Positions 954 to 24,300 of a stretch of DNA of 64,000 nucleotides are shown one piece after another. The notes beneath the pieces are model-generated. The model made no database searches and was not told where the DNA came from. It saw only the letters and a program-made list of their open reading frames with translations. The DNA comes from Elusimicrobia bacterium GWB2_63_16. GTDB lineage: Bacteria > Elusimicrobiota > Elusimicrobia > Elusimicrobiales > UBA9959. A program made the position numbers and the translations under genes. The stretch's first letter is position 1, and the number at the start of each line of letters is the position of its first letter. The DNA is taken from positions 60,162 through 124,161 of the forward strand of contig MGTZ01000007.1 of assembly GCA_001799715.1 (NCBI GenBank). The letters run 5' to 3'.

Positions 954-3770
954 ATGGACAAGATCATCATCAACGGCGCGCGTTCGCACAACCTCAAGAA
1001 CTTAAGCCTCGAACTGCCCAAGAACAAGCTGGTGGTGATCACCGGCCTGTCGGGATCGGGCAAAAGCACCCTGGCCTTCGATACGGTCTACGCCGAGGGC
1101 CAGCGCCGCTACGTGGAATCCCTCTCGGCCTACGCCCGGCAGTTCCTGGAGCAGATGGACAAGCCCGACGTGGATTCGATAGAGGGCCTTTCCCCGGCCA
1201 TCGCCATCCAGCAGCACCACCCCTCCAAGAACCCCCGCTCCACCGTGGGCACCGTCACCGAGATCTACGATTACCTGCGCCTCCTGTTCGCCAAGGCCGG
1301 GCGCCCCTTCTGCCCCTCCTGCCATAAGCCCATCAAGGCCTGGTCGGCCCAGGGCATCACCGCGGAGATCGCGGCCAAGTACGCGGGCCGCAAGGTGCGG
1401 CTCTTCGCCCCGCTGATACGCGGCCGCAGCGGCACCTACGAGGAATTGTTCGCCCGCCTGAAGAAGGCCGGCTTCGCCAAGGTCAAGGTGGACGACAAGG
1501 TGTTCTCCCTGGAGACGCCCCCGGACCTGAAGCGCTACGTGAAGCACGACATAGATCTCTTTGTGGACGAGTTCACCGTCTCCGCCGGCGACCGCGAGCG
1601 CCTCAGCGAGGCCGTGGAGCTGGCGCTGGGGCAGTCCAAGGGCCTGCTCTCGGCCGAAGAGCCCGGTAAACCGGCCGACCTCTACAGCGAGAAGAACGCC
1701 TGCCCGTCCTGCGGCATCAGCTTCCCCGAACTGGAGCCGCGCCTGTTCTCGTTCAATTCCCCCCACGGCGCCTGCCCCGAATGCGACGGCCTGGGCATAA
1801 AGATAGAGATAGACCCCGACCTGGTGGTGCCGGACAAGACCAAGTCCGTCAACGACGGGGCGCTGGAGGCCTGGGCCAACCCCGTCACCACGCGCACCCA
1901 CCGCTGGAAAGGCTCCTGGTCCGGCTACTACGCGGACATGCTCAAGACCGCCGCCGAGGCCAACGGCATAGACCTGGACAAGCCGTGGAAGGACCTGCCC
2001 AAGGCCCACCGCGACATGCTGTTCAACGGCGCCGGGGATTTCGAAGGCGTGATCACCAACCTCAAGCGCCGGCACACGGAGAGCGAGTCCGATTTCGTAA
2101 AGGAAGAGATCTATACCAAGTTCATGCAGGAGACGGTCTGCCCTTCGTGCAAAGGACTGCGCCTCAAGCCCGAGGCCCTGAGCGTGATCGTGGACGGCAG
2201 GAACATAGCCCAGATGGCCGCGCTGCCCATAGCCGCCGCCCTGAAGGCCATGACCGCCCCCGACCTGAGCGCCACGGAGCGGACCATCGCCCGCCTTATC
2301 CTCAAGGAAATAAATTCCCGCCTGAACTTCCTCAACGACGTCGGCCTGGGCTACATCTCCATGGACCGCCGCTCCGAAACCCTGTCCGGCGGCGAGGCCC
2401 AGCGCATACAGCTGGCCACACAGATAGGCTCCGGCCTGACCGGCGTGCTGTACGTGCTCGACGAGCCCACCATCGGTCTGCACCAGCGCGACAACGCCAA
2501 GCTCATCGGCACCCTCAAGGCGCTGCGCGACATCGGCAATACGCTGCTGGTGGTAGAGCACGACGAGGCCGTCATCCGCGGCGCCGACCACATAGTGGAC
2601 CTCGGCCCCGGCGCGGGCCTGGCCGGCGGCTATATAGTGGCGCAGGGCACCCCCGAGGAGATAGTAAAGAACCCCAAGTCCGTCACCGGCCCCTACCTGA
2701 GCGGGGCGCGCTCCACCACGCTCAGGCGCGAACCGCGGGCCCACTCCGGCAAGTTCCTGGAATTCACGGGGGCGAAGCAGTTCAATCTCAAGGACATCGA
2801 CGTCAAGATCCCGCTGGGACTGTTCGTCAGCATCTGCGGCGTGTCCGGCTCCGGCAAATCAACGCTGCTCTACGAGATCGTGTACAAGGCGCTGGCGCGC
2901 GAGCTCTACAAGTCCAAGGAGACGCCCGGCGCCTTCCGCGCCATGAAGGGCGCCTCCGGCATAGACAAGGTCATCATCGTAGACCAGTCCCCCATCGGCC
3001 GCACGCCGCGCTCCAACCCGTCCACTTACAGCGGCGTGTTCAACCATATCCGCGACCTGTTCGCGGCGCTGCCCGAGGCCAAGCGGCGCGGCTACGAGCC
3101 GGGGCGCTTCTCGTTCAACGTCAAGGGCGGCCGCTGCGAAGCCTGCCAGGGCGACGGCACCATCAAGATCCAGATGCAGTTCCTGCCCGACGTCTACGTG
3201 AAGTGCGAGGAATGCGGCGGCCACCGGTTCAACGAGGACACCCTGGCCGTTAAGTTCAAGGGCAGGAGCATCGCCGACGTGCTGGCGCTGTCCGTGGGCG
3301 AGGCCGCGGAACTGTTCGCCGACATCCCGCGCATCGCCAAGATCCTGTCCACGCTCAGCGAAGTGGGGCTGGACTACCTGAAACTGGGCCAGAGCGCCAC
3401 CACCCTCTCCGGCGGCGAGGCCCAGCGCCTCAAGCTGGCCGAGCAGCTGGCGCGCCGCGCCACCGGCCGCACCCTGTACATCCTCGACGAGCCCACCACC
3501 GGCCTGCACTTCGCCGACGTGGAGAAGCTGCTGAAAGTGCTGCACCGCCTCTCCGAAGCGGGCAACACCGTGCTGGTCATCGAGCATAACCTCGACGTGA
3601 TCGCCGCCTCCGACTGGCTTATAGAGCTGGGCCCCGAGGGCGGCGACGCCGGCGGCCGGCTGGTCTACTCCGGCCCGGTGGCCGACGTGGTGAAGGCGCG
3701 CGGCTCGCATACCGGTTTCTACCTTAAGGAGCACCTGGGCGGCCTGAAGAAAAAGGCCGCCGCCCGCTGA
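954..3770 (+). CDS. uvrA: Excinuclease ABC subunit A
   Basis: 938 aa; two ABC ATPase modules, GLSGSGKST and GVSGSGKST Walker A, LSGGEAQR signatures, CxxC zinc motifs. Confidence 0.98.
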
Positions 3771-4984
3771 TGACCGCCCCCGCCCCCTCCGAGCCCCGCC
3801 GCAGGGTACTGCTGGTAGCCCCGCGCTTCCCCTTCCCGTCGCTCAGCGGCGGCGAAAAGTGGACGGCCTCGCTCGCGCGCGGCCTGGCGCGGCGGCACGA
3901 AGTCTCGCTGTTCTCCTTCGCGGTGCGCGGAGCCGAGGCGCAGCAGACGGCGCTCGCCATGAGCCTGGAGGGCCGGGAGCTGAACAAGGTCTACCTGCTG
4001 CCCAGGCCGGCGTCCGCCGCCGGGCAGGGCCTGCCGCTGCTGCCGGCCATGTACTGGTCCCCTGAAGCGGCGGAGCGCCTGGCCGAGGCCGCCGCGGAGA
4101 CGCGGGCCGAGGTGGTGCACATACTCTTCTCGGAGATGGCCTGCTACGCCGCGGCCCTCCCCCCCGCCCTGCCCGCAGTCTACACCGAGATAGACTCAAG
4201 CTACCTCTACCCGTGGAAGTATTACCTGCGCGAGACGGCCGGCCTGCAGGGCTATCTGATGCTCCGCGAGTTCTTCAGGGGCAGGGCATACGCCCGCCGC
4301 CATTACGGCCGCTTCGCGGCGGCCACGGCCATCACCGCCAGCGACGGCGCGGATATACAGCCTTACCTGCGCTCCCCGCTGGCCGCCGTAACGCCCAACG
4401 CGGTGGGTCCGGAGGAGTTCGCCCCCGCCGCGCCCCCCGAGCGCAAGGACGGGGAGATCCTTTTCGTGGGCCATTACCCGCATTACCCCAACGAGGACGC
4501 AGCCCTGCGGCTGGCCCGGCGCATCTTCCCGCTGGTCAAGGCGGAGCGCCCCGACGCCACGCTAGTCCTGGCCGGCTCCTGTCCCACGGCCGTAGTCAAA
4601 GCCCTCGCCGGGGCCTACACTGCCGTGCCAGGCACGGTTGCAGACCTGAGGCCCGCCCTGTGGCGCGCGCAGGTCTTCGCCGCCCCGGTGCGCTACGGCC
4701 TGGGCGCCAAAGGCAAGATCCTCGAGGCTTTCGCCGCCGGCCTGCCGGTAGTCGCCTCCCGCGAGGCCGCCGCCGGCATAGAGGGCGCGATAGACGGCGA
4801 ACACCTGCTCGCCGCCGCATCTGACCGGGAGTTCGCGGCAGCCGCGGCCCGCCTGCTGGGCGACCCGGCCCTGCGCGGGCGCCTCGCCGCCGCCGCGCTA
4901 GACCTGGTAAAGAAAAGATTCTCTTTCTCTGATGTGGTCTCGTCGGTCAGCGGCGTCTACGCCAAGGTGCTCGATGGCCGTTAA
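3770..4984 (+). CDS. Glycosyltransferase, GT4/group 1-like
   Basis: 404 aa; N-term RVLLVAPRFPFPSLSGGEKW, C-term GAKGKILEAFAAGLPVVAS; start overlaps uvrA stop. Confidence 0.85.
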   Translation: MTAPAPSEPRRRVLLVAPRFPFPSLSGGEKWTASLARGLARRHEVSLFSFAVRGAEAQQTALAMSLEGRELNKVYLLPRPASAAGQGLPLLPAMYWSPEAAERLAEAAAETRAEVVHILFSEMACYAAALPPALPAVYTEIDSSYLYPWKYYLRETAGLQGYLMLREFFRGRAYARRHYGRFAAATAITASDGADIQPYLRSPLAAVTPNAVGPEEFAPAAPPERKDGEILFVGHYPHYPNEDAALRLARRIFPLVKAERPDATLVLAGSCPTAVVKALAGAYTAVPGTVADLRPALWRAQVFAAPVRYGLGAKGKILEAFAAGLPVVASREAAAGIEGAIDGEHLLAAASDREFAAAAARLLGDPALRGRLAAAALDLVKKRFSFSDVVSSVSGVYAKVLDGR

Positions 4985-5852
4985 TTCGCTGCATATTGAG
5001 CTGCTGCACGCCTGCCCGCTCTCCTGCGCGGCCTGCGACCACAGACTGCGCGGCGGGGCCAGGCTGCCGCGCGCCGCGCTGGACGCGGTACTGCGCGACC
5101 CCGCTTTCTCGGGCCTGCGGCTGGCCTCTTTCTCCGGCGGAGAGCCGCTGCTCTACCCGGGCCTGGCAAAAGTCCTCACCGCGGCGGCGCGGGCCTGGCC
5201 GGACGCCGCCCTGGTGCTGCTCACCTCGCTGTACCTGCCGGGCAAGGCCCTCTCCCTGCTGCGCCGGCTGCCGCCCGCCGTGCTGCGCCGTCTGCATATA
5301 GGTTCCTCGCTGGACGGGCCCGGTCCCGTTCACGACGCCCTGCGCGGCCGCCCCGGGGCTTTCGCCGCCCTGCGGATGGCCCTGGCGAAAATCAAGCGGG
5401 AGTTCCCCGGAGTTTCCGCGGGCCTGACCTTTACCGCCACCAGCCGCAACGCCGCCGTCTTCCACGAAACCTGGAACGAGGCCCGGGCCATGGGAGTACC
5501 GCTCGGAGTCCAGTTCCTGGTCCCCAACGACAACACCGCCGGATTGGAGCTGGACGCGGCTGCGCGCAAGGCCCTCTCCGCCGGGCTGCGCCGGGCGCTG
5601 GAGGCAACCGCGTCCGCTTCCCCCCAGGCCGCCGACCTGCGCCAGGCCCTCGGTTTTCTCGGCGGCGGCCCCACGGCGGCCTGCGGCGCCGGCGTCACCT
5701 TCCTGATGCTGGCCCCCGAGGGAGAGTTCTACCTTTGCCCTTTCCACAAGGAGATCAAGGCCCCGCTGAACGCCCCCGGCGCCCTGCGCCCCCCGGCCGC
5801 CGGCTACCGCGGCAGGTTCTGCGCGGAATGCTTCCTGCGCTGCGCCCAGTGA
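4974..5852 (+). CDS. Radical SAM protein
   Basis: CPLSCAAC (CxxxCxxC) and SFSGGEPLLYPGL; likely start MAVNSLHIE inside the listed ORF; C-terminal Cys cluster. Confidence 0.85.
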   Translation: MAVNSLHIELLHACPLSCAACDHRLRGGARLPRAALDAVLRDPAFSGLRLASFSGGEPLLYPGLAKVLTAAARAWPDAALVLLTSLYLPGKALSLLRRLPPAVLRRLHIGSSLDGPGPVHDALRGRPGAFAALRMALAKIKREFPGVSAGLTFTATSRNAAVFHETWNEARAMGVPLGVQFLVPNDNTAGLELDAAARKALSAGLRRALEATASASPQAADLRQALGFLGGGPTAACGAGVTFLMLAPEGEFYLCPFHKEIKAPLNAPGALRPPAAGYRGRFCAECFLRCAQ

Positions 5853-9740: not shown

Positions 9741-10496
9741 ATGGGGAAAGCAGACCTGGACAAACTTTGGGCGCTGGCGCGGGCCGAGTGGCGGCTGCGC
9801 CAGCAGAGCACCTTTTTCGGCTTCCTGTGGACCCTGCTCAACCCCGCCCTGATGTTCGCCGTCCTTTACGGCCTCTTCGTCAAATGGCTCGGCCGCGCCC
9901 AGGGCGACTACGCCGTCTTCCTGCTGATAGGCCTCGTCGAGTGGAACTTCTTCGCCTCCGCCACCTCCTACGCCCTGTCCAGCCTGCTGCGCCGCGGCCC
10001 GCTGCTTAAAAGCTACCCCCTGCCGCTGGAAGTCCCCGTCCTCGCCGCCGTGCTCAGCGTCTATTTTTCCCATTTGCTCGAGCTCGCCGCCCTCGGCCTG
10101 ATACTCGCCTGGTTCCAGGCGCCGCCTTCTTTTCCCTGGCTCTGGGTGCTCGTGATAGACGCCGCCTACCTGGGCCTGGCCGCCGGGGCCGGCCTGCTGC
10201 TGGCCGGGCTTTACGTCTTCTTCTCGGACCTGGAACGCATCTGGAACCTGGTCCTCACCGCCGGCTTCTTCCTCACGCCGGTCTTCTACCCCCTCTCGGT
10301 GCTCGCCCCAGACAAGGGAGCGCTGCTTAAGGCCAACCCGCTCACGGCAGTGATAGAAAGCGCCAGGCTGGTTTTCTCCGGTTCCGCCCCGCGCCCCGGC
10401 GACCTGGGGCTGACGGCGCTATGGGCCGCCGCCGCGCTGGCCGCGGGCTTGGCCCTGCTGCGCTTCAAGCGGCGGGCCATAGAGGACGCCCTGTGA
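9741..10496 (+). CDS. ABC-2 type polysaccharide/polyol-phosphate export permease
   Basis: 251 aa; N-term LRQQSTFFGFLWTLLNPALMFAVLYGLFVKW, multi-TM. Confidence 0.9.
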   Translation: MGKADLDKLWALARAEWRLRQQSTFFGFLWTLLNPALMFAVLYGLFVKWLGRAQGDYAVFLLIGLVEWNFFASATSYALSSLLRRGPLLKSYPLPLEVPVLAAVLSVYFSHLLELAALGLILAWFQAPPSFPWLWVLVIDAAYLGLAAGAGLLLAGLYVFFSDLERIWNLVLTAGFFLTPVFYPLSVLAPDKGALLKANPLTAVIESARLVFSGSAPRPGDLGLTALWAAAALAAGLALLRFKRRAIEDAL

Positions 10497-12082
10497 CCGG
10501 CCTCGCCGTAAAGAATATCTCCAAGACCTACCGGGTTGAGCTGCCCCGGGAGGACGCGCTCTCGGTGCTGATGCGCTTCTTCAGCGGCCGCTCCCCGTCG
10601 CGCCCCTTCAACGCCCTCGACGGCGTCTCTTTCGACCTGAAACCGGGACGCGCGCTGGCGCTCTGCGGCCCCAACGGCTCCGGCAAGACCACCCTGCTCA
10701 AGATCCTCGCCGGCATTACTTCCCCCTGCTCCGGCGAGGTCGCCTTCGCCGGTAAAACGGCCTGCCTGCTGGGCTTCGCCTCCATCCTGCAGGACCGCCT
10801 GAGCGTGAAGGAGAACGCCCGCCTCTGCGCCGTCTTCTTCGGCCTGCCTGGCGCCCCCGCCGAAGCGGCGGAGCGGGTGCTGGCGGCCTCCGGGCTGGCG
10901 CATTTGCGCAATGCCCGCGCAGGCGAGCTTTCGGCCGGCATGAAGCTGCGCCTGCCCTTCATGGCCGCGCTGGCCTGCGGCGCTGACCTGTTCCTTATCG
11001 ACGAGACCCTGGCCGTGGGAGACGCGGCCTTCCGCGACCTGTGCCTGGCCCGCCTGCGGGAGCTCAAACGCGCCGGGGCCATGCTGGTTTTCGCCACGCA
11101 CGACCAGGCCCTCGCCAAAGGCCTGGCCGACGAGGCGCTGGTGCTGGAAGCCGGAAGGCTCGTCTTTTCCGGCGCGGCGGCGGCCCTGCCCCACCACGGG
11201 GCAAAAGAGCCGCCCGGTACCGCCTTCCGCCGCGGTCTGGAGCGGTACGCCGTCCTTTATGAAAAACTGAAGGCCGCCGGCTACGCGCTGCAAGAAGCCC
11301 CGCCCGCCTCCGACGAAGAACTGCTGCTGGTCCACACTCCGGGCTGGCTCGCGCGACTCAAGAACAACGAGCTTTCCCCCGCCGAAGAAGAGGCGCTGGC
11401 GCTGCCCCTCTCTAAACATATCCTGCCCCTGTCCTGGCGCCTGGCTGGCGGCACCCTGGCCGCGGCCCGCGCCGCGCTCTCGTCGGGCCTGGGGATCTTC
11501 CCGCCGGGCGGCGGCCACCACGCCTTCCCCGACCGGGGCGAAGGGTTCTGCCCGGTCAACGACATAGCCGTGGCGGCGCGGGCGCTGCTGAAAGAGGGCC
11601 TGGTCAAAAGGCCAGCCGTCATAGACCTCGACGCCCACCAGGGCAACGGCACGGCCTTCATCTTTGCCGACGGCGAGGTGCGGACTTTCTCCGCCCATAA
11701 GGCGGGCGGCTACCCGCCGCAGCGGGTACGCTCGTCGATGGACGCCGAGATCCCCGACGGCTCCGGCGACGCCGTTTACCTGGCGGCGGTTAAAAAAGGA
11801 ATAAAGGATTTTCTGGAACTGGCGAAACCCGACTTCGTCTTCGCCCTCTGCACGGCCGACGCCTACGAAAAAGACCCGCTGGGCGGGCTGAAGGTTTCGG
11901 CTGAAGGGCTGGAGGAAAGGGACAGATTCGTCTTCGGCACCCTGTCGGAGAAAAAGCTGCCAGTCTGCCTGATACTGGGCGGGGCCTACAGCGAACCGGC
12001 GGAAGCCGCCGGCATAAATTTCAACACTATACAGGCCGCGGCCGCGGCCTGCGCGTCATTCAACAAGATCGTAAGCGTATAG
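10493..12082 (+). CDS. ABC transporter ATPase fused to histone-deacetylase-fold domain
   Basis: GTG start overlaps permease stop (GTGA). N-term: GPNGSGKTT, LFLIDETLAVGD. C-term: PGGGHHAFPDRGEGFCPVNDIAVAA, VIDLDAHQGNGTA, TADAYEKDPLGGL, GGAYS. Confidence 0.92.
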   Translation: MTGLAVKNISKTYRVELPREDALSVLMRFFSGRSPSRPFNALDGVSFDLKPGRALALCGPNGSGKTTLLKILAGITSPCSGEVAFAGKTACLLGFASILQDRLSVKENARLCAVFFGLPGAPAEAAERVLAASGLAHLRNARAGELSAGMKLRLPFMAALACGADLFLIDETLAVGDAAFRDLCLARLRELKRAGAMLVFATHDQALAKGLADEALVLEAGRLVFSGAAAALPHHGAKEPPGTAFRRGLERYAVLYEKLKAAGYALQEAPPASDEELLLVHTPGWLARLKNNELSPAEEEALALPLSKHILPLSWRLAGGTLAAARAALSSGLGIFPPGGGHHAFPDRGEGFCPVNDIAVAARALLKEGLVKRPAVIDLDAHQGNGTAFIFADGEVRTFSAHKAGGYPPQRVRSSMDAEIPDGSGDAVYLAAVKKGIKDFLELAKPDFVFALCTADAYEKDPLGGLKVSAEGLEERDRFVFGTLSEKKLPVCLILGGAYSEPAEAAGINFNTIQAAAAACASFNKIVSV

Positions 12083-12892
12083 CCGGTAGAGCAGCGCCCT
12101 CGAAGCGAAGGCCGGAGCCATGAAAGACTCGGTGCCCGAGCCGTCGCCCAGCGCCAGGCGCCCCGCCCAGTAGGCCGCCGTCGGGCCGGTCAGGTCCTTC
12201 TTCACCTTCAGCTTCCAGCCCGTATTTTTACTGGCCTCCAGGTATTCCCGCTCGGCGTGAATTTTAGTGACGTAGGCTTTGTCGGCCTGCCGCGCGTAGG
12301 CACGGCCCCGCGCATGGGCCTCGTTGCGAACCCAGGCAATGATCACCAGCCGCGCCCCCGGCCTGGCGGCCCGCGCCGTCTGCGAAAAGAAGAGGGCCAG
12401 GTCGGGCACGTGCTCGGTGGACTCGCAGGCCCAGACGCGGTCGAAGGAACCGGGCTTGAAAGGCAGGGCCAGCATGGAGGCCCTGGAAAATCTCACGCGC
12501 CCGCCCAGCCCCCGCCCTTTGGCGGCGGCGCGGGCAGCGGCGGCCTGGTAGGAGGAAACGGTCACGCCTCTGATGGCGAGGCCCGGGCATTTTCCGGCGA
12601 GCAGCAGGCTGGAGCCGCCCCGGCCGCAGCCGGCGTCGAGCAGCGCCATGCCGGGGCGGGGATTACGCAGGTATTTAAAGCCCAGCTCGGACAGGGCCGT
12701 CTCGGAGGCGTGGATGAGGGCCTTGCCGGCGGCGCCGCTTTTTTTGAGGCGCCGCAGAAAAGCGGCCTTGCCATAGACCAGCCCGTTGTGATGATGGATG
12801 ACGCCGTCCGGGGCGAGGCGCCAGTTGAAATCCCGGCGCTTGGCGTCGTACAGGGCGGCGACTTTTTTAAGCCACGGAGCGGTAGTTTTCAC
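12056..12892 (-). CDS. SAM methyltransferase resembling geranyl diphosphate 2-C-methyltransferase
   Basis: 278 aa, GTG start. FNWRLAPDGVIHHHNGL, LLDAGCGRGGSSLLLA, CESTEHVPDLALFFSQ, KIHAEREYLEA. Confidence 0.75.
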   Translation of the reverse strand: MKTTAPWLKKVAALYDAKRRDFNWRLAPDGVIHHHNGLVYGKAAFLRRLKKSGAAGKALIHASETALSELGFKYLRNPRPGMALLDAGCGRGGSSLLLAGKCPGLAIRGVTVSSYQAAAARAAAKGRGLGGRVRFSRASMLALPFKPGSFDRVWACESTEHVPDLALFFSQTARAARPGARLVIIAWVRNEAHARGRAYARQADKAYVTKIHAEREYLEASKNTGWKLKVKKDLTGPTAAYWAGRLALGDGSGTESFMAPAFASRALLYRLYAYDLVE

Positions 12893-13416
12893 GGTGTTCC
12901 CTTTTGCAGCGCCGCCGAGAGCGCGGCCGCCAGGCGTTCGGCTGAAGCGCGCGGAGAGGCCTCCAGCCCCCTGAGCCTGGCGGGCAGGGCCAGCAGCGCG
13001 GGGAGGGCGGCCATTTCCCCGGCGAAAGCGGCGTGCAGGCGCAGGGCGGCGGGAGCGGGCAGGCGGCCCGCCCCCGAAAAAAGAAAATGGCGGGAGTAAT
13101 TCCCCAGGGCCATGGCGAAGTTCAGCGTCATCGGCCTGTCCATGCCCGGCAGCAGGACACCGCGGCGCACGAAGTCTGCTGTTATTTGCTGCGAGGCCTG
13201 CCAGCAGCGCAGCGCCAGGGCCAGGTCCCGGCGCAGGGCCGCGGGGAGGGAGGCGGGCAGGCCTGTTTCCGCCGGCACGGGCCGGCGGCACAGGGCGCGG
13301 GCGGGAGAGAAGAAAGCCTCCTCGGCGGTGCTGCTGTCGCCGGGAAAAGGGGCGCTCCCCAGCCTGGCCTTGTGCCAGGAGCGGACCTTGGCCGCGCCGG
13401 GAAACAGTTCGCTCAT
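12889..13416 (-). CDS. Hypothetical protein (orphan in operon)
   Basis: 175 aa from MSELFPGAAKVRSW; overlaps both neighbours by 4 nt (ATGA, GTGA). Confidence 0.7.
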   Translation of the reverse strand: MSELFPGAAKVRSWHKARLGSAPFPGDSSTAEEAFFSPARALCRRPVPAETGLPASLPAALRRDLALALRCWQASQQITADFVRRGVLLPGMDRPMTLNFAMALGNYSRHFLFSGAGRLPAPAALRLHAAFAGEMAALPALLALPARLRGLEASPRASAERLAAALSAALQKGTP

Positions 13417-14141
13417 GCCCGGCAGGCCTCGCGGATGGCCGCCAGCCGCTTCGGGCAGACCGCGCGGGAGCGGTCCGCGCCAAGGCAAACGGCGCCGCGC
13501 AGCCCTACGATATCGGGGCCGAGCTTTTTCAGGGCGGGCAGGTGCCGTTCGGCCACGGAGCCGGCCAGGGCCGTGCCCAGTCCGGCGGCGCGCGCCAGCG
13601 CCAGGAAACCCGCCAGCTCGCGGAGCGTCATATTGTCGAAAAGGCAGCGCCCGTCCTTGAGCGCCGTGTCGAGCATCACTATGTCGGCCCCCGCCTTTCG
13701 GGCGGCCCGCACCAGCGCCCGCGGCGAGAGCCCGCCGAAGCGGCGCCAGTCGGCGTAGCCGGAAATTACCGCCCGCGCGCGCGGGTTCGCGTTTTTAACG
13801 CCTTTCACCACCGCCCCGGCCAGGGCCTCGGCCTGCGCGCCGGCCTTCACCTGGTAAAGCCCGCCTTTCACATAATCGGCCCCGATAGCCGCCGCGGCGT
13901 AGGCGGCCAGGGCCGCCGTGCCCGGCTTGAAGTCCAGGTCGCCGATGGCGGCGCTGAACTTTACGGGGAAGCGCTTCAGTTCTTTGATGACCGCCGACAG
14001 CACCCAGGGGAAATTAGCGCCGAGCGAGCCCTCTTTGACGTTCTTGAGGTCCAGTATATCGGCGCCGCCGCGGGCCACTATGCGCGCCTCGCGTATATCG
14101 ACGGGACTGACCAGCAGTTTTATCCTATTTGTTCCTGTCAT
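13413..14141 (-). CDS. (5-formylfuran-3-yl)methyl phosphate synthase-like (MfnB / DUF556)
   Basis: LLVSPVDIREARIVARGGADILDLKNVKEGSLGANFPWV, MLDTALKDG, DIVGLRGAVC. Confidence 0.9.
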   Translation of the reverse strand: MTGTNRIKLLVSPVDIREARIVARGGADILDLKNVKEGSLGANFPWVLSAVIKELKRFPVKFSAAIGDLDFKPGTAALAAYAAAAIGADYVKGGLYQVKAGAQAEALAGAVVKGVKNANPRARAVISGYADWRRFGGLSPRALVRAARKAGADIVMLDTALKDGRCLFDNMTLRELAGFLALARAAGLGTALAGSVAERHLPALKKLGPDIVGLRGAVCLGADRSRAVCPKRLAAIREACRA

Positions 14142-15198
14142 AAGCCATGTAGCGTCCGAGGCCGCCGAAGAATTCCCTGTATTTCCGCCCCAGCGGGAAA
14201 GCCTCTATATTCTTGAGCGCCCTGCCGTAAAACACGCCTATCAGCCGGCGGTTTTCGCGCAGGGCCCCGCTGGCGCGCACTATATCTATAACATTTTTGA
14301 GGCGCCCGGCGGAAATGCGCGCGTCGCCCAGCGCGGAGCGCAATTCGCGCCGGCAGGCCGCCGGGGCCAGCTCCAGAGCCTTCAGGTAAAGGTAGGTATA
14401 GCGCCCTGCGGTGATGTCGTCGGCCAGCGGCTTGCCCCATTGCGCGCTGCGCGGAAAAAGGTTCAGTTCGTCGCCGTGCAAATGATAGGCCATGCCCAGC
14501 CAGGAGCCCGCTTTTTCGAAGAGCGGCAGCTGCTCACGGGAGGCGCCGCCCAGCAGCGCCCCCATTCTGAACGGGCCGTTGAAGGAGAGGAAACGGATGC
14601 GGTCCCAGGTCATGGCCAGGTACTCCCGCGGCGACGGCCGCCGGCGCGACGCGGTCCAGTAAAGTTCCAGGGCCTGCCCGTAGCCGTAGGCGAAGATCTC
14701 CCTTGAGAGGGAAGACAGTATTTCCAGCCTGCGCCAGTCCTCCAGCCGCAGCCCGGGATCGAGGAAAGCGCGGTAGGCCCAGTTATAGGCGGCCTGGTAG
14801 GCGAGATAGGCTTTATTCGCGCCGTAGAGCTTGTGGGTGGCCGGCCCGCCGCGCCGGGTGTCGGAGCCGTCTATCAGATCGTCGAAGCTGACGGTGGAGG
14901 CCTCCATCAGCTCTATGGCCCCGAGTACCGCGGAGTAAGACCCCGGCTTTTTGCCGAAGGCGCGCAGCAGCTCGTGCGTGATCAGCGGGCGCAGCATTTT
15001 CCCGGGGCGCTCCAGATAAAGGCGGGCCGGCAGGCAGACGGCCCGGCGCAGCGCGGCCGCGCGCCCGGGAGAAGGCGCCCCCCCCGGCCAGGCAGCCGGC
15101 AGGCGGCGCGGGAAAGCTTCAAGGGAAGCGGCGGCCGCCGCGGCGCTGGCCAGCCGCAGGGAAGTGTTTTCAGCTTTCGCCGCCGCGCTCTGTTTCAA
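14125..15198 (-). CDS. Polyprenyl synthetase-like protein with degenerate second Asp-rich motif
   Basis: First motif SFDDLIDGSDTRRGGPATH; second motif position reads YHLHGDELNLF; GKPLADDITAGRYT. Confidence 0.82.
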   Translation of the reverse strand: MKQSAAAKAENTSLRLASAAAAAASLEAFPRRLPAAWPGGAPSPGRAAALRRAVCLPARLYLERPGKMLRPLITHELLRAFGKKPGSYSAVLGAIELMEASTVSFDDLIDGSDTRRGGPATHKLYGANKAYLAYQAAYNWAYRAFLDPGLRLEDWRRLEILSSLSREIFAYGYGQALELYWTASRRRPSPREYLAMTWDRIRFLSFNGPFRMGALLGGASREQLPLFEKAGSWLGMAYHLHGDELNLFPRSAQWGKPLADDITAGRYTYLYLKALELAPAACRRELRSALGDARISAGRLKNVIDIVRASGALRENRRLIGVFYGRALKNIEAFPLGRKYREFFGGLGRYMAYDRNK

Positions 15199-16227
15199 TT
15201 AAAAAGTCCTTCGGCCCAGCGCCTGGATGAATTCGGCTATCAGCCGCCCGCCCGGCGGGCGCATGGCCGGCAGCAGGCTTTTTTCAAAAACGGCGGCGGC
15301 GGCGGCGGTCAGGGCCTGCGCCCTGGCCCGGCAGGCGGCCGGCGCGCCCGAAGCCAGGATGGCGCGCCGCGCGGCCGCCACGGCGGCGGCGGACTTGGCG
15401 GCGGGCGGCAGAGAATACAGCCGCGCCAGGCGGCGCGCCGCGGCGGGCGGCAGGCGCCTGAAGGCCTCCAGCGCCACCAGGGTGCGCTTGCCCTCGAGTA
15501 TATCGTTGCCGGGAGCCTTGCCGAAAAGGCCGGTCCCGTCGTTCTCGGCGTCCAGCACGTCGTCGGTGATCTGGAAGGCCGCGCCCAGCAGCCGGCCGAA
15601 TTCGCGGATGGCAGCGGACTGGCCGCGCGCGCCGGCCAGCTCGGCCCCGAGCAGGCACGGCACGGTCACCGTATAGAACGCGGTCTTGCGCTCCGCGATG
15701 CGCAGGTAGGCTCCGGGGGTGAATTTTTCAAGCGGGATCTCCCTGGCCTCGATATCGAGGTGCTGGCCCCCCAGGGTGACTTCGGTAGCTTCGGCAAAAA
15801 TAGCGCGCACCCGGCCGTATTCGCCCGCCGGCAGGCGGCAGTAGACGTAGAGCATGTCGAAGACGCAGTCGTGCAGCATGTCCAGCGCGTTGAGGGCGCG
15901 CGGCAGGCCGTAGCGCAGGTGCAGGGCCGGCAGGCCGCGGCGCAGCTGTCCGCCGTCGAGGATATCGTCGCGGCCGAGGCCCCAGTCTTCCAGCAGCTGG
16001 TAGGCCGAGGCCACCTTGAGCGCCGGCCCGGGGCGCCCGCCGTAAGCCCGCGCGAAGAGCAGCGCCAGCGCCGGGCGCAGGGCCTTGCCGCGGCGGTAAG
16101 GGTAATCCTTCACGCAGGCCCGCATGGCGGGCGGCAGCGGGGCCGTCCGCTTTTCCAGGTAGGCCCGCACGTGGCGGAACACGCCGTCGCGGCAGGAGGA
16201 AAGGAAAAGTTCGAGCTGTGTTTTCAT
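15199..16227 (-). CDS. Polyprenyl diphosphate synthase
   Basis: RRGKALRPAL, DDILDGGQLRRG, AFQITDDVLD, GNDILEGKRTL; start MKTQLELF. Confidence 0.9.
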   Translation of the reverse strand: MKTQLELFLSSCRDGVFRHVRAYLEKRTAPLPPAMRACVKDYPYRRGKALRPALALLFARAYGGRPGPALKVASAYQLLEDWGLGRDDILDGGQLRRGLPALHLRYGLPRALNALDMLHDCVFDMLYVYCRLPAGEYGRVRAIFAEATEVTLGGQHLDIEAREIPLEKFTPGAYLRIAERKTAFYTVTVPCLLGAELAGARGQSAAIREFGRLLGAAFQITDDVLDAENDGTGLFGKAPGNDILEGKRTLVALEAFRRLPPAAARRLARLYSLPPAAKSAAAVAAARRAILASGAPAACRARAQALTAAAAAVFEKSLLPAMRPPGGRLIAEFIQALGRRTF

Positions 16228-16301
16228 GGTTGGCAGCGCAGCCGCGGAATATATTATAGGACTATTGCGGCAGGGATAAAAAGCCGGCCCGACGCAGGCT
16301 C

Positions 16302-17057
16302 CTACTCCGCTCTGACCAGGGTGCCGCAAGCGCGGCCGCCGGAAAGGAATTTCAGCAGTTCGCCAGGCCGCCTGCCGTCCGCGATAAAACTGTCAACGCC
16401 CAGGGCATTAAGCCTGGCCAGTTCCGCCGCCTTGCCGGCCATGCCGCCGCTGACGTCGCCGGGGGAAGGGCGGCAGATCTTTCTGAACAGCTTCAAACCG
16501 GCGGCGTTCAGCTCGCCGATCACCTTGCCTCCGGGCCCCGTCAACCCTTGCGCGGCCGTAAAGAATACCGCCAGCCGGGGTTTGAAGGCCGCGGCCAGCT
16601 CCGCCGCTATGGCGTCGCTGGAAACCACCCTGAACCCGCCGCCGCAAGGAAAAAGGTCGCTGTTGACCACGGGGACGCAGCCGCGGGCCAGCAGGGAGGA
16701 AAGCCGGCGTGTGGCCGACAGGACAAGCCGCCCCCGTTTAAGGGCAAAGACCTCGCAGCCCGGGCAGCTTACGGCCTTTACACCGGCCGCCAGCAGTTCG
16801 GCTACGAACAGGCCGTGCAGCTCCCTGAGCGAAGCCTTTATCTCCGTCACCGGGGCGGCGCCCCGCCTTATCCGTCCGTCCAGGTAACCGTACCTCACGG
16901 CAGGCGGCTTGCCGTACGAGCCGGTACCATGGGTCAGAATGAGCGGCTCGTCCAACAGGGCAATGGCCGCGGCCAGGCGGGCCGCGGCGCGGCGGTCGAA
17001 AACGGGTTTCTGCCCCGCGCGGGTTATGGAGCTGCCGCCGGCTTTAATTACTAGCAT
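16302..17057 (-). CDS. Amino-acid-kinase-superfamily kinase, isopentenyl phosphate kinase-like
   Basis: 251 aa; MLVIKAGGSSIT, LILTHGTGSYGKP, VVSSDAIAAELA, GDVSGGMAGK, GTLV. Confidence 0.78.
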   Translation of the reverse strand: MLVIKAGGSSITRAGQKPVFDRRAAARLAAAIALLDEPLILTHGTGSYGKPPAVRYGYLDGRIRRGAAPVTEIKASLRELHGLFVAELLAAGVKAVSCPGCEVFALKRGRLVLSATRRLSSLLARGCVPVVNSDLFPCGGGFRVVSSDAIAAELAAAFKPRLAVFFTAAQGLTGPGGKVIGELNAAGLKLFRKICRPSPGDVSGGMAGKAAELARLNALGVDSFIADGRRPGELLKFLSGGRACGTLVRAE

Positions 17058-18020: not shown

Positions 18021-18305
18021 ATGCCGGAAAACAAGAAGAACCCGCTGATACTCGAGTCGGTAACCTGGCGCAAGACCGGCGACGAGGCCGTTATACTGGA
18101 CCTCGAGAGTTCCAATTATTATTCAGCCAACGAAACCGGCACCTTCGTCTGGGAACAGTTCAGCGCCGGCAAGAAGCCGGAGAAGATCGCCGAAGGCCTC
18201 GCCGAGGAGTACGGCATCGCTCCCGCGCAGGCGCGGCGCGACGTGGAAGATTTCCTCAGGGACCTCGCCAAATTCAAGATAGTTCGCCCGGAGGCGGCCA
18301 AATGA
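18021..18305 (+). CDS. PqqD-family protein (RiPP recognition element-like)
   Basis: 94 aa; AVILDLESSNYYSANETGTFVWEQF...IAEGLAEEY. Confidence 0.85.
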   Translation: MPENKKNPLILESVTWRKTGDEAVILDLESSNYYSANETGTFVWEQFSAGKKPEKIAEGLAEEYGIAPAQARRDVEDFLRDLAKFKIVRPEAAK

Positions 18306-18406
18306 AACAGCAGAAGAAAACCCGGCAGAAGCCGCGCAAGTACCAGAAGCCCCAGCTCCGTTCCCACGGGAAGATAAGTGAAGTCGCTTCCGCCTTCAAA
18401 CCTTAA
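18302..18406 (+). CDS. Candidate RiPP precursor peptide (not in ORF track)
   Basis: 34 aa MKQQKKTRQKPRKYQKPQLRSHGKISEVASAFKP; ATGA overlap with the PqqD gene; YQKPQL = YxxPxL. Confidence 0.6.
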   Translation: MKQQKKTRQKPRKYQKPQLRSHGKISEVASAFKP

Positions 18407-19361
18407 AACCAGAACTGCCTTCCTGTTCCCCGGTTCAGGCAGCCAGTACCCCGGCATGGGCCGGGAACTGTACCGCCGGGTACCAGCGGTGCGCGCCGCC
18501 CTCGACGCGCTGCCGCCGCAGTCCTCCCACGGACTGCGGGACATCATGTTCTACGGCCCGGAGAGCAAACTGTTCCCGCCGGTAGACTCTCCCACCCCCT
18601 CCCTCTTCTTCGAAGCCACCGTGGCGCTGTCGCTCTCGGTGGCGGCCGCCTTGCGCGCCTCCGGAGCGAGGCCGGACTGCGCCGCGGGCCGCAGCGTCGG
18701 CGAGTTCGCGGCCTTCGCCTTCGCCGGCGCCGTCGCCCCCGGCTTCTGCTTCAGGGCCATACGCGAGTTCTCCAGGCTGGGCCAGCGCAACTGCCTGGAA
18801 CGGCCCAGCGTGCTGCTGACGGTATACGGGGCCGGCAGGTCGGACCTGCAAAAAGCCTGCGCGGCGCTGGCCCGCGGCGGGCGGGTCTGCGAACTGGTTA
18901 ATTTCTACTCCCGCCTCAACGCCGGCGTGGCCGGGATGGACGCCGCCCTGGCCGCCCCCTTCAGGGCGCTGCTGCCGAAGCGCGCGCGCGTTAAGGCCTG
19001 CAGAGAGGTCGGGGCCTTTCACACCTCCCTTTTCGCCGATACCGCGTCGTCCGTGGCCGGCCTGGCCGCCGCGGAGACCTTCAACAGACCTTCCTGCGGC
19101 CTCTATTGCGCCAGCGACGCCCGCCGGGCGGCCGCCCCGTCCAGGCTGCGCTCGCGCTTCGCCAGGGCCGTGGACGGCCCTGTACTGTGGGAGGAGACGC
19201 TGCGCGCCATGCTGCGCGACGGCGTGCGCACTTTCGTGGAGCTGGCCCCCGGCGCGATGCTGACGGAATTCATCTGCGACCTGCCGCCCGGCGCGGAGGT
19301 GCTGCGCACCGACACGCCCGAAAATTACGCCGCGACCCTGGCGAGGCTGGTGAAAGAATGA
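18378..19361 (+). CDS. Malonyl/acyl-CoA:ACP acyltransferase-like (FabD fold)
   Basis: FPGSGSQYPGMGRELY, GRSVGEFAAFAFAGA, GAFHTSLF, ELAPGAMLTEF; GTG start. Confidence 0.85.
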   Translation: MKSLPPSNLKTRTAFLFPGSGSQYPGMGRELYRRVPAVRAALDALPPQSSHGLRDIMFYGPESKLFPPVDSPTPSLFFEATVALSLSVAAALRASGARPDCAAGRSVGEFAAFAFAGAVAPGFCFRAIREFSRLGQRNCLERPSVLLTVYGAGRSDLQKACAALARGGRVCELVNFYSRLNAGVAGMDAALAAPFRALLPKRARVKACREVGAFHTSLFADTASSVAGLAAAETFNRPSCGLYCASDARRAAAPSRLRSRFARAVDGPVLWEETLRAMLRDGVRTFVELAPGAMLTEFICDLPPGAEVLRTDTPENYAATLARLVKE

Positions 19362-20359
19362 AGACCGCCCCGACGCTAAGACTGAACCTCTCCGGCTGCG
19401 CCGTAGAGTTCGCCTGCGGCGACCGGGAGCTCGCCGCGGCCGTGGCGGCGGACTTCTCCGCTTTCCCCTCCGGCGGCGGCGGGGACCCCGTCAGGATAGA
19501 AGCCAGGCTGGAAGCCGTAAACCGCCCCGAGCTGGCCCTGTTGCGGAGCCGGCGCTACAGCGTTCTGCCCGCCCGCCCCGGCCTGCGCCGGATCTGGTAC
19601 CCCGAGGGCGCCCTCTGCGAGTATGACTATGCCGCCCGCTCGGCCCTGATACGCGCCGCCGGCGGCTCCCTGCTGAAGGAGCTCTCCTACCTGCTGATAC
19701 TCTCGCGGGCCGGCGAAGAACTGGACCGGCGCGGGCTGCACCGCCTGCACGCCGGGGCGCTGGGCCGGGGCGGCCGGGCGCACTTGTTCTGCGGGCCGCA
19801 GGGTACCGGCAAGACCACGCTGCTGCTGGAACTGCTCAAGGACCGGGACTTCAGCCTTCTCTCCGATGACACCCCGCTGGTCGCGAGGGACGGGACCGTG
19901 CTGGCCTTCCCGGTCCGCGTCGGCCTCGGGCTGGACAGCCCCCACCTGCCTGAGCTCGGGGAGTTAAGGAAATTCGAACGGCGGCATTACCCGCCCAAAC
20001 GTCTCCTGGACATCGGCCCGGCCGGCATCCGGGTTTCGCCGCAGCTGCCGCCTGGCGGGATATTCCTGCTGCGCCGCGCCGCCGCCCCCCGCATAAGCCC
20101 CGCGGGGCGCGGCGCCGCCGCCGTAGAACTCCTGCGCTCGCTGGCGCTGGGCTGCGGCACGCCGCAGCTGGCGGAATATTTCCTCAGGCCGGATCCAGCC
20201 GACGCGGCAAGCAAGGCCGGAATACTCTTCTCCCGGCTGCGCGCCGCGCGCGCGCTGCTGGCCAGGGCTGATTTTTATGTTTTCGAGGTCGGCCCGGACC
20301 GGGCCAAGAACGCCGCGGCCTTCAAGTCTTTCCTGAACACCGGCACCGCCGCGGCCTGA
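19358..20359 (+). CDS. HPr kinase-like P-loop protein
   Basis: RLHAGALGRGGRAHLFCGPQGTGKTTLLLELL, FSLLSDDTPLV; ATGA overlap with acyltransferase stop. Confidence 0.8.
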   Translation: MKTAPTLRLNLSGCAVEFACGDRELAAAVAADFSAFPSGGGGDPVRIEARLEAVNRPELALLRSRRYSVLPARPGLRRIWYPEGALCEYDYAARSALIRAAGGSLLKELSYLLILSRAGEELDRRGLHRLHAGALGRGGRAHLFCGPQGTGKTTLLLELLKDRDFSLLSDDTPLVARDGTVLAFPVRVGLGLDSPHLPELGELRKFERRHYPPKRLLDIGPAGIRVSPQLPPGGIFLLRRAAAPRISPAGRGAAAVELLRSLALGCGTPQLAEYFLRPDPADAASKAGILFSRLRAARALLARADFYVFEVGPDRAKNAAAFKSFLNTGTAAA

Positions 20360-21347
20360 GACTTCCCGAAGCTTTCTCGACAAGTCCTTCAATAAAACCC
20401 GCCGCCCAGCCCGCGGCGTAGCAGCCGTGCAGGGCCGGGTATAGCGGCACCAGTGCCGGTCTCACCGCAAGGGGCGCCGCCGAGAGCGCGGCCGCCAGCA
20501 AAGAAACCGTTAAATATATCCCGGCGGCCGCGGCCAGCAGGCCCGGGGCGTAAGCCGCGGCCGGCACCGCGCCGGCCAGCGCCGCCGGGGGCAGCAGCGT
20601 GAAAGCGGAGAACCCCCGCGGGCTCAGCGCCGTGATCTGCCCTCTCCCCCTGCCCGAGCAGAACACCTGGCGCAGGAAAGCCGCCGGGCTCGCGCGCCGC
20701 CGGTGCACCAGATTGAGATCCCCGCTGAGCGCCATGCGCGCGCCGGCCGCCGCCATGCGGTTGAGCAGCAGGTTCTCCTCGGCGCTGCTCAGATGGCCTT
20801 CGAAAGACAGCGCATGCGCGCGCAGAAAGGCGTTATCCAGCGCCAGGTTGCAGAGTATGAATTTTTCCGGCCCGGCGGCCGCCGTGCCGCGCGCCGGGGA
20901 GAAGCGCGAGGTAAAGGGCCCGCCGCCCCAGGGGCCGGAGAGCAGGGCGTAAACGGCGGTCTCGAAATAGCCCGCCTCGCGGTGCGGCGCCTGGCCGCCG
21001 CCGAAGACCGAGACTCCCGGGTTGGCCCCTATCAGGGCGGCCAGGCGGTCGAGGTAGCCGGGCGGCACTTCTGTATCGTCGTCGAGAAAACACAGCCAGC
21101 GTCCGGCCGCCCTCGCCGCCAGCAGGCCCCGGGCCTCGCCGCGGCAGGCGCGGCGCAGCTGCACCGGTTTCAATTCCGGCCACGCGGCATAGCGCTCCAG
21201 CAGCGCCGCCGAGGCCGGGTCCTCCCCGTCTATACCCACCAGGATCTCCCCCGCGGGCCCGGCGCGCCTCAGGCTCTCCAGGCAGGCCTCCAGCAGGGCC
21301 GGCCGGCCGCGCGTGATAATGATCACGCTGATACCGCCGGCGCTCAC
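20322..21347 (-). CDS. GT2 family glycosyltransferase, membrane anchored
   Basis: ISVIIITRGRPALLEACLESL, WLCFLDDDTEVPPGYL, C-terminal TMs. Confidence 0.85.
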   Translation of the reverse strand: MSAGGISVIIITRGRPALLEACLESLRRAGPAGEILVGIDGEDPASAALLERYAAWPELKPVQLRRACRGEARGLLAARAAGRWLCFLDDDTEVPPGYLDRLAALIGANPGVSVFGGGQAPHREAGYFETAVYALLSGPWGGGPFTSRFSPARGTAAAGPEKFILCNLALDNAFLRAHALSFEGHLSSAEENLLLNRMAAAGARMALSGDLNLVHRRRASPAAFLRQVFCSGRGRGQITALSPRGFSAFTLLPPAALAGAVPAAAYAPGLLAAAAGIYLTVSLLAAALSAAPLAVRPALVPLYPALHGCYAAGWAAGFIEGLVEKASGSLRPRRCRCSGKT

Positions 21348-24300
21348 GCCCCCTCCATCAGCGCCGCCGTCTGCGCCGCGACGAACTCGTAATTAACGCC
21401 GCAGGCCCCGCCGGCCCGGAAGTCCGGCCACGACGGGCCGTCGCCGAATTGCGCGCGGTAGGCCGCGCCGAGCTCGTGCGGGCGGGAGAAGGCCGGCGCG
21501 TCGCCGGCGGCGAGCAGCAGGCGCAGGCCGGCCGCGCGGGTATAGAAATAATGGGGAGGCATGGTCCCCCAGAGCGAGCGCCAGGAAGCGGAGAAATGCG
21601 CCGCCGCCAGACGGGCCGCCGCGGCGGTAGCGGCCTTGGACCGCGCCGCTGGCCGCGGCGCGCCGTACAGGAACAATCCGCCGTCCTCCGGCGAGGTGCC
21701 GGCGGCGGGGACCAGCAGGTCCTGCCAGAACAGCGGGTTATTGAGATAGGGCAGGCCGGCCAGGGTCAGGAAGGACGAGCGCGAAAGCAGCAGCGGCGCC
21801 GGCGAGAAGTAAGGCGTGCCCAGCCTGGCCGCGCCATAGGCCGCCGCGGCTTTTAAAAAACCTGCCTTGTCTCCCGCCAGGTCATCCGGCAGCAGCACGT
21901 AGACGCGGTACAGGGAATCCAGGACAACTGCGGTCCCCGCCCCGGCGTCCCTGGCGAGGGCGGCGCAGGAGGCCTCGAAAACGTGGGTGTTGAACCAGGC
22001 CGGGTTCGCCGGCGCCGCGACGGTGGCCGCCTCGGCTGCGGGCGGGCAGGCGGCGTGCAGGGAGGAGAAGGCCTCGAAGGCGGCAGCGCCGGGATCACCG
22101 GCGCCAGCGAGGTCCGCCCCTATGCTGCGGGCGTAGTCTCGGCGGGAACCCCGGGCCGGAGACGCCGTGTCCAGGTACCGCCGCACGTCCACCATCCCTT
22201 TCTGGCAATTGCGGCTCCGGAAGGCGGGCGGCAGGCCGGTGGCGTAGAAATGAGTCAGCAGCAGCGTATAGGCATAGAAAGCTTCCGTCAGGTCGGCCGC
22301 CGCGGCCCCGCTGGCAGCCGCGGGCTTGATCCCGGGCCCGGCGAGCAGGCGGGAAGCGGCGGAGAACTCCGCGCCTTTGACACCCCAGGCCGACATGAAG
22401 GCGGAGAAATGCGCCGCCGGCGCGCTCAGCACCTCTCCGGTGAAAGGGAAGACAGCGCGGAACAGGCGCAGGCGGCGGCGCAGCGCGCGCCAGGAGGCCC
22501 AATCGGCGGCCGGCGCGGCCGGCGCGCCGAGCAGGGCGAGGTCCATATCGCTCAGGCCGGCCACCCAGTCCCCGGCGGCCATGCCGCGGTAGAGGTAAAG
22601 CGAACCGCCGCGGCCGGGGCGCAGCAGCGCCGCGGCGGCCCGCGCCGCCGCCAGGTAATACAGGCGGTACAGCCAGGCCAGCGGCGGCAGGCCGGCGGTA
22701 GCCGCCGCGAAGCGGAACAGCAGCGCCCTGGCCCTGGACGGCGCCGGGCGGGCCGCAGGCGGGGTCCAGCGCTCCCCGTTCACGAAAACATCCACGGCCT
22801 TCAACCGCGCGCCCGGAGCCGCCACCAGCCCCGGATAGGGCGCGCCGCTGATCTCCGCCCCGCGCAGGACCACCCGGCCGGCCGACACCCGCAGGCCGCC
22901 CTTGGCCCCGCCGCTGGAGCGCAGGCCGCTGGCGTGCAGGGAAAGGCCGGACAGGGCGGCGGCATAATCGCGGGCGGCTATCCGCAGGTCCTCCGCTCGC
23001 ACCGCGGTAACGCCGGCCGTCAGCAGCCCTCCGGCCCCGGAGGCGTAAACGCCGCGCAGCACGGCGCCGCGGCAGTCGAGATCCAGCGCCGCCCCCCCGC
23101 CGGCCTCCAGCGAGCAGCCGGTGAGGCTCAGCGAGGCGGCTCCGCGCGCGTATACGGCGTCGGCGGAGGAGGTGAAGGAGGAGCCTGCCGCGCGCAGGCG
23201 CGCGCCGCCCGCCAGCGAAACGGCCGGGGCGCCGGAACTGTCGGCAGAAAAGCGCTCCAGGGAAACGCTGGCAGTCCCGCCGGCGGCCAGCGCGGCGTGC
23301 GCGCCCCCGGAACGGCAGGAAAAAGCGAAAAGCCTCGAGGAACCGAAGAGTTCGAAAGAGGGCCCGGCATTGCCCGAGAAAGAACAGCCAGCCGCCTCCA
23401 CGGCCGCCCGGCCGGACAGGGCGGCTCCCGACCCGTTGCCGGGGAAGGCGCAGCCTTCCGCCGACGCGCCGGCCCGGCCGGAGAGCCGCAGCGGCGCGCC
23501 GGCATTGTTTTCAAAGCGGCAGCGGTACAGCCGGGCCCTGGCCTTGCCGGAAATTTCCGCCCCTTCATGGTTGCCGGCAAAGACGCAGCCGGAGGCGGCC
23601 AGCGCGGCGCGGCCGGAGAGGCACAGCGCGGACCCGCCGTCGGAAAAGGCGCAGCCGGAGGCTGAGAAGTTCATAAAACCGGCGGCCGCCTGGCCCGAGA
23701 CTTCGGCCGCGGCCCCGCCGCAGCGCTCCGCCAGGCCGCCGCAGGCCAGCAGCACGGCATGGTCCCCGGCGAGCAGCGCCGGTCCCGCCAGGCCGGTAAA
23801 AGAGCAGTTGTCCAGCGTGGCGCCGGCGGCCCCGTAGAACTCGGCGCCGCGGGCGCCTCCGGAGACGGCGCAGCTTTCCGCCAGCGCGGAGGCGTTATCC
23901 CGGGCCGAGAAGGCGCAGGCCGCGGAGCCGGACAGACGGGCGTGCGAGAGGGTCAGGCGGCCGCCGCCCAGCGCGTAGATACCGGCGAAAGCGGGGCCGC
24001 CGGCGTTAACCGGCGCGGCGGCGGTCCCGGCGGCGTGGAACTCGCCGTAGACCAGCAGTTTGGCGCCGGCGCTCTCCAGGGAGCGCGCCTCGCCATCCAG
24101 CCCGGCGCGCAATACGGGAAAGAACCAGGGCTCGCGCCGCTCGAAGACTATCTCGGTGCCCGGGAGAGCGGTAACGCGCGCACCGGCGGCCACCGTCAGG
24201 TAATCGGCCACCACTACGCGGCCGCTCCAGGTCTCGTCGGCCGTTATCCTGCCGCTCTTGACGGAGCAGGCCCCGGCGGCGGGAACGCCGCCGCTGGGGC

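Follow-up and report, generated by a model that had tools for sequence, protein, structure and literature searches.

The 64,000-nucleotide stretch of Elusimicrobia bacterium GWB2_63_16 analysed here (the window) encodes a protein in which a Wzt-type ABC exporter ATPase is fused to a domain with the fold and the complete set of catalytic residues of a histone deacetylase (HDAC). Both are known kinds of part; for their combination, an ABC ATPase–HDAC fusion, we found no description in the literature searched. Our best explanation, to which we give about an even chance of being right, is export-coupled deacylation: a class IV-like HDAC carried on the ATPase of a Wzm/Wzt-type glycan exporter would act on the exported molecule. 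The features on which the argument draws are collected in Table 1.

Table 1. Features of the fusion protein, its neighbourhood and related loci. Positions without a locus prefix refer to the window.
Feature	Position	Strand	Basis or remark
GT4 glycosyltransferase	3770..4984	+	PF13692 E 7e-21; conserved upstream of permease
Radical SAM (rSAM) protein	4932..5852	+	PF04055 E 4e-7; present in most loci
ABC-2 type permease (Wzm-like), fusion partner	9741..10496	+	ABC2_membrane PF01061 E 6e-16
Wzt-type ABC ATPase (NBD), fusion residues 1-237	10493..11203	+	PF00005, fold, motifs
Class IV-like HDAC-fold zinc deacylase domain (predicted), residues 239-529	11207..12082	+	PF00850, 9rje, VcHdaH fold
Catalytic His dyad H342-H343	11516..11521	+	Alignment of 16 fusions
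DLDAH: D378, zinc ligands D380 and H382	11624..11638	+	Alignment of 16 fusions
Zinc ligand D456	11858..11860	+	Alignment of 16 fusions
Catalytic Y499	11987..11989	+	Alignment of 16 fusions
PqqD-like peptide chaperone, recurrent locus	18021..18305	+	PF05402 E 3e-19; beside fusion in G031
FabD/MdcH-like acyltransferase, recurrent locus	18378..19361	+	PF00698 E 3e-17
HPr-kinase-like protein	19370..20359	+	Name by sequence inspection; weak P-loop match AAA_33 E 3e-4; conserved beside acyltransferase
Lone HDAC, G045	L117:7393-8298		ATG overlaps uvrA stop; without beta-1, without exporter
HDAC-less exporter ATPase, G049	L159:9046-9762		Ends at 238 aa; same syntenic operon
Wzt-type ATPase with DegT/DnrJ/EryC1/StrS aminotransferase-like domain	L160:5851-8193 (G025), L161:9308-11632 (G014), L162:968-3031 (G031), L201, L208, L209, L211		

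The fusion occupies one open frame of 529 amino acids, as the initial annotation had it, running from a GTG start at 10493, which shares 4 nt with the end of the permease gene, to a TAG stop at 12082. The assembly from which the window derives comprises 2.87 Mb in 62 contigs and is 91% complete. It had been proposed to look for the same architecture in other genomes: the fusion recurs, uninterrupted and free of internal stops, in 15 further species of its Elusimicrobiota family (genera g1, g2 and g8), whose HDAC halves are 51–87% identical to that of the window protein. Because these species were assembled independently, the fusion is not an assembly error; a chimera is ruled out, and so is a frameshift splitting the two halves, which the initial annotation had named as fatal to the idea. 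Eleven fusion loci were seen independently among GTDB contigs, most of them titled as Elusimicrobia MAGs. Chance motif matches are ruled out by the E values and fold matches given below.

The N-terminal half is the ATPase of a Wzt-type (polysaccharide/teichoic acid) ABC exporter. ABC_tran (PF00005) matches residues 42–173 with an E value of 3e-21, far above the Pfam cut-off, and the half contains Walker A (residues 59–67, with Lys65), the signature LSAGM (146–150), Walker B (Asp170/Glu171) and the H-loop (His203). These catalytic motifs are conserved across the 16 fusions in an alignment of which one row carries a run of N in the ATPase part. Residues 3–237 of the AlphaFold model best match the WzmWzt O-antigen exporter (7k2t, Z 28.3), and the top Foldseek hits likewise place the fold nearest to Wzt and TagH. 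The leading NCBIfam families are TagH, Wzt/RfbE and DrrA, none of them above its curated cut-off. An N-terminal ABC ATPase had been recognized from the outset; its boundary, set at residues 220/221, was placed about 18 residues too early, as the ATPase fold reaches to about residue 237.

Among known exporters, a close counterpart is WzmWzt of Aquifex aeolicus (PDB 7k2t/8dne/6m96). It shares the ATPase fold and motifs with the fusion (31% identity over 231 residues), has an ABC-2 permease encoded adjacently and carries an extra C-terminal domain behind a short linker. In WzmWzt this domain is the jelly-roll, carbohydrate-binding Wzt_C, whereas the fusion has an HDAC-fold domain there. Fold and sequence place the wall teichoic acid exporter ATPase TagH/TarGH in this ATPase subfamily as well; to our knowledge, its C-terminal region is not an HDAC, unlike that of the fusion. 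Wzt_C (PF14524) gives no Pfam match in the fusion, and a complete catalytic set stands in its slot, in agreement with the earlier proposal that an HDAC-fold domain replaces the carbohydrate-binding domain. The partner permease is of the ABC-2 type, as had been stated, and in every one of the 16 fusion loci with enough upstream DNA to judge, the permease and GT4 genes precede the fusion.

The C-terminal half matches Hist_deacetyl (PF00850) at residues 250–503 (E 4e-47, again far above the cut-off). In the AlphaFold model, residues 239–522 have their best fold match in VcHdaH, a class IV enzyme (Z 30.5), with Leptospira HDAC11 at Z 29.2, and the HDAC fold claimed in the initial annotation, which was to be given up if no such match appeared, stands. 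The motifs named there were all found, from GPNGSGKTT (59–67) and Asp170-Glu171 in the ATPase to His342-His343, DLDAH (378–382), Asp456 and Tyr499 in the HDAC half. Among HDACs of solved structure, those closest in sequence are 9rje (E 4e-50), 9gz5 (2e-39) and 9gkv (4e-37), ahead of HDAC6. The first is clade A chrHDAC11-1 and the second, with 9rjd, clade B Leptospira HDAC11 (PMC13325672); 9gkv is VcHdaH of Vibrio cholerae (PMC11532494). The domain tree separates the fused and lone domains, together with class IV, from HDAC6 (support 100/100). Judged by sequence and fold, the HDAC half belongs with the class IV (HDAC11-like) deacylases. The acetylpolyamine amidohydrolases (APAHs), named alongside HDACs in the initial annotation, score lower by fold, with Z 24.8 compared with 30.5 for class IV. 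No result indicates an N-acetyl sugar as the substrate or acetyl as the group removed, both of which had been put forward.

Like the class IV structures that form its top sequence and fold matches (9rje, 9gkv/9gky and 9gz5/9rjd), the fusion has a full zinc site, a His dyad and the catalytic tyrosine. His342, His343, Asp378, Asp380, His382, Asp456 and Tyr499 are invariant in 16/16 fusions; with 66 of the 248 domain columns invariant, the chance of all seven catalytic ones falling among these is ~7e-5. Both halves are under purifying selection, with dN/dS values against the three nearest relatives of 0.18–0.21 for the ATPase and 0.14–0.20 for the HDAC domain. The full-length AlphaFold model has a mean pLDDT of 83.7 and a pTM of 0.56, which leaves the relative placement of the two halves uncertain. 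The domain-only HDAC model (pTM 0.84) has low-confidence loops near the active site (model residues 119–126 and 159–166); given the low confidence of these two loops and the lack of strand β1, the model does not prove the geometry of the zinc site.

Could the HDAC fold act as an acyl-group reader or gating module, in the manner of the carbohydrate-binding domain of Wzt, with hardly any turnover, if any at all? Its position equals that of the latter domain (PMC9445017), and the phylum has recruited other enzyme folds as non-catalytic C-terminal domains: at least seven homologous Elusimicrobiota exporters carry a DegT/StrS aminotransferase fold (PF01041) at the ATPase C-terminus, several behind a long coiled-coil-like spacer, and the position of the PLP lysine is kept in 2/7 of these domains (motif read by eye from the alignment), so that they resemble enzymes that have decayed and now serve for binding. 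Yet a general-base His dyad and a tyrosine would be needless for binding alone, and the seven catalytic residues, invariant in the fusions, are also kept in their lone relative in G045. Such invariance favours catalysis over a mere gate, and the contrast between a fully kept HDAC site and the reduced aminotransferase sites is our main argument for catalysis and not binding. We therefore consider a reader or gate improbable.

The set of C-terminal domains in the phylum extends further. One Wzt-type ATPase (L203:2152-2871, +) ends in an SGNH-hydrolase-like domain (weak Pfam match DUF4886) that, from its GNS and DxxH motifs, is apparently intact. In G180 (L204/L225), which belongs to another family, the equivalent hydrolase is the gene right after the ATPase. 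Ordinary Wzt_C domains are found in the phylum as well. We tentatively suggest a more specific and wider reading, which is possible, if short of probable: the exporter's own ATPase subunit would remove an N-acyl protecting or maturation group at the channel entry, as part of a modular Elusimicrobiota scheme in which Wzt-type ATPases handle their substrates by means of exchangeable enzyme folds (HDAC, SGNH hydrolase, aminotransferase-derived).

We compared the pocket of the HDAC half with those of the two class IV clades. Among the characterised enzymes, those of clade B are long-chain deacylases, whereas the substrates of clade A are unknown and apparently non-peptidic (PMC13325672, PMC11532494). 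Clade B is marked by a rim glutamate, Glu94, for peptide substrates and by a bulky Phe/Tyr gatekeeper, and clade A by a Thr/Ser gatekeeper and an Arg-Glu pair in the foot pocket (PMC13325672). The position of Glu94 is occupied by Ala303 in the window protein and by Ala, Leu, Gln, Ser or Val across the fusions, never by Glu; this lack of a rim glutamate is shared with clade A. The gatekeeper is Gly341 in the window protein and Gly or Ala across the fusions. Neither the clade B features nor the clade A gatekeeper were found in the 16 fusions, and hydrophobic residues stand at the clade A Arg-Glu positions of the window protein. The fusion further differs from the class IV HDACs in sitting behind an ABC ATPase and in lacking strand β1, which precedes the rim loop L1: the strand is missing in the sequence alignment, the structural alignment begins only at residue 239, and the first 18–25 residues of the class IV structures have no counterpart in the fusion. 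By comparison with the published structures (PMC13325672), the missing rim glutamate, the small gatekeeper and the absence of β1 would together create a wide site, and this points to a bulky, non-peptide substrate.

These features also bear on whether the HDAC domain deacylates protein lysines, on the exporter or on a partner, and thereby switches export on and off. The clade B class IV enzymes are indeed lysine long-chain deacylases (PMC13325672), and the HDAC domain of the fusion is the only one found in the genome of the window. Against this stand the absence, in all fusions, of the glutamate that positions the peptide backbone in clade B, and the presence in eight other fusion genomes of a strong second, lone HDAC hit; the aligned lone paralogues mostly keep the glutamate. 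A lysine-directed switch is accordingly very improbable. More generally, stand-alone class IV-like HDACs are common in the phylum and about 42–46% identical to the fusion domain; unlike the latter, they are unfused, keep β1 and mostly keep the rim glutamate.

Across 340 genomes of the phylum, the fusion was found in one family only, all other HDAC hits being stand-alone proteins of ~300 aa or lying in longer open frames. Of the latter, 20 in long open frames were inspected and had no ATPase upstream, and no second fused group was found among the 340 Elusimicrobiota genomes. A contig scan, whose patterns reach close relatives only, found the fusion in Elusimicrobiota alone, apart from loci titled 'bacterium', and 72,556 plasmids held no place covering 80% of the fusion query. 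The fused HDAC domains of the 16 species form one clade (support 100/95), whose sister (99/89) is the lone HDAC of G045. This protein keeps all catalytic residues, and the G045 genome gives no match to the permease. Conversely, G049 has the operon uvrA-GT-GT4-rSAM-permease-ATPase with an ATPase that lacks the HDAC domain. In the ATPase tree, it lies inside the fused clade, with moderate support at the closest node (86/83) and good support at the next outer one (98/95), which implies that the HDAC domain was lost in G049 and is not essential for export there. The two halves are functionally linked yet separable.

This separability fits another alternative, in which the HDAC half does serve this pathway as an active deacylase but works on a free cytoplasmic intermediate, the fusion serving only for co-expression and membrane placement, uncoupled from transport. 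An exporter without an HDAC in G049, a lone HDAC after uvrA in G045 and the similar constraint on both halves are all in line with it. What such a deacylase leaves unaccounted for is that 16 species retain one and the same fusion, always in the C-terminal slot in which Wzt handles its substrate, and we regard the uncoupled arrangement as rather unlikely, though the least so of the alternatives considered. The same observations weigh on the export-coupled reading: the HDAC domain is dispensable in G049, whose operon is otherwise the same, and it occurs without an exporter in G045. So does the finding that, on the acyl-peptides tested, class IV relatives of clade A are inactive or nearly so (PMC13325672).

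In export-coupled deacylation as we envisage it, the HDAC domain would sit at the C-terminus, where a carbohydrate-binding domain is usual. As the ATPase forms a dimer, the complex would carry two HDAC domains, placed where the channel opens to the cytoplasm. In Wzt proteins, the C-terminal domain recognises the end of the glycan to be exported, shifts in step with the ATP cycle and is able to function in trans (PMC9445017); it serves as a quality checkpoint (PMC11231755). Most likely, the HDAC domain would cleave the amide bond of an acyl group, be it acetyl or longer, either on the molecule being exported or on a precursor still bound to its carrier. The cargo is probably a glycan or glycoconjugate that the surrounding GT4/GT2/PqqD/acyltransferase locus produces. 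Removing the acyl group and passing the molecule to the pump would then form a single coupled event. The sequences establish the fusion, its conservation, the intact active sites and the purifying selection on both halves; that the domain is catalytic, which class of substrate it accepts and that it is coupled to transport we infer from them. If this is true, a passive checkpoint that reads the glycan end has become an enzyme in the Wzt slot, and product maturation is physically joined to export. The fusion would also offer a practical route to the substrates of clade A-like class IV HDACs, since candidate partners in the pathway (GT4, acyltransferase, PqqD) are encoded in its operon.

The conserved operon has the order uvrA-GT4-(rSAM)-permease-fusion. 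A second block, PqqD-acyltransferase-HPrK-like-GT2-large β-helix protein, lies downstream of the fusion; in G031, whose locus is compact, it directly adjoins the fusion, and the contig ends within the acyltransferase. A close acyltransferase homologue is present in 15/16 fusion genomes. One is also found in G049, where the exporter lacks the HDAC, and in G030, which has no exporter; this weakens the pairing of acyltransferase and HDAC as proof of an acylation/deacylation cycle. The acyltransferase of the window (18378-19361, +) is a stand-alone protein with the nucleophile motif GRSVG and not GHSxG.

Between the two blocks of the window lies a terpenoid-like cluster (12056-17057, −). It encodes a methyltransferase related to geranyl diphosphate 2-C-methyltransferase, a 4-HFC-P (methanofuran-type furan) synthase (PF04476), two polyprenyl synthases and an isopentenyl-phosphate-kinase-like protein; methyltransferase, 4-HFC-P synthase and prenyl synthase recur together in relatives. 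We did not adopt these genes as the source of the exported substrate, because they are absent from the compact G031 and G053 loci, bar one UbiA gene in G053. The terpenoid-like cluster also encodes a 199-aa protein (12889-13488, −) that has no Pfam or NCBIfam match and is conserved in relatives at 56–71% identity. Beyond the second block's HPr-kinase-like gene, an 1149-aa protein (21344-24793, −) contains a central right-handed β helix (PF13229); judged by eye, its beginning resembles S26 peptidases and a region near its end resembles nucleotidyltransferases.
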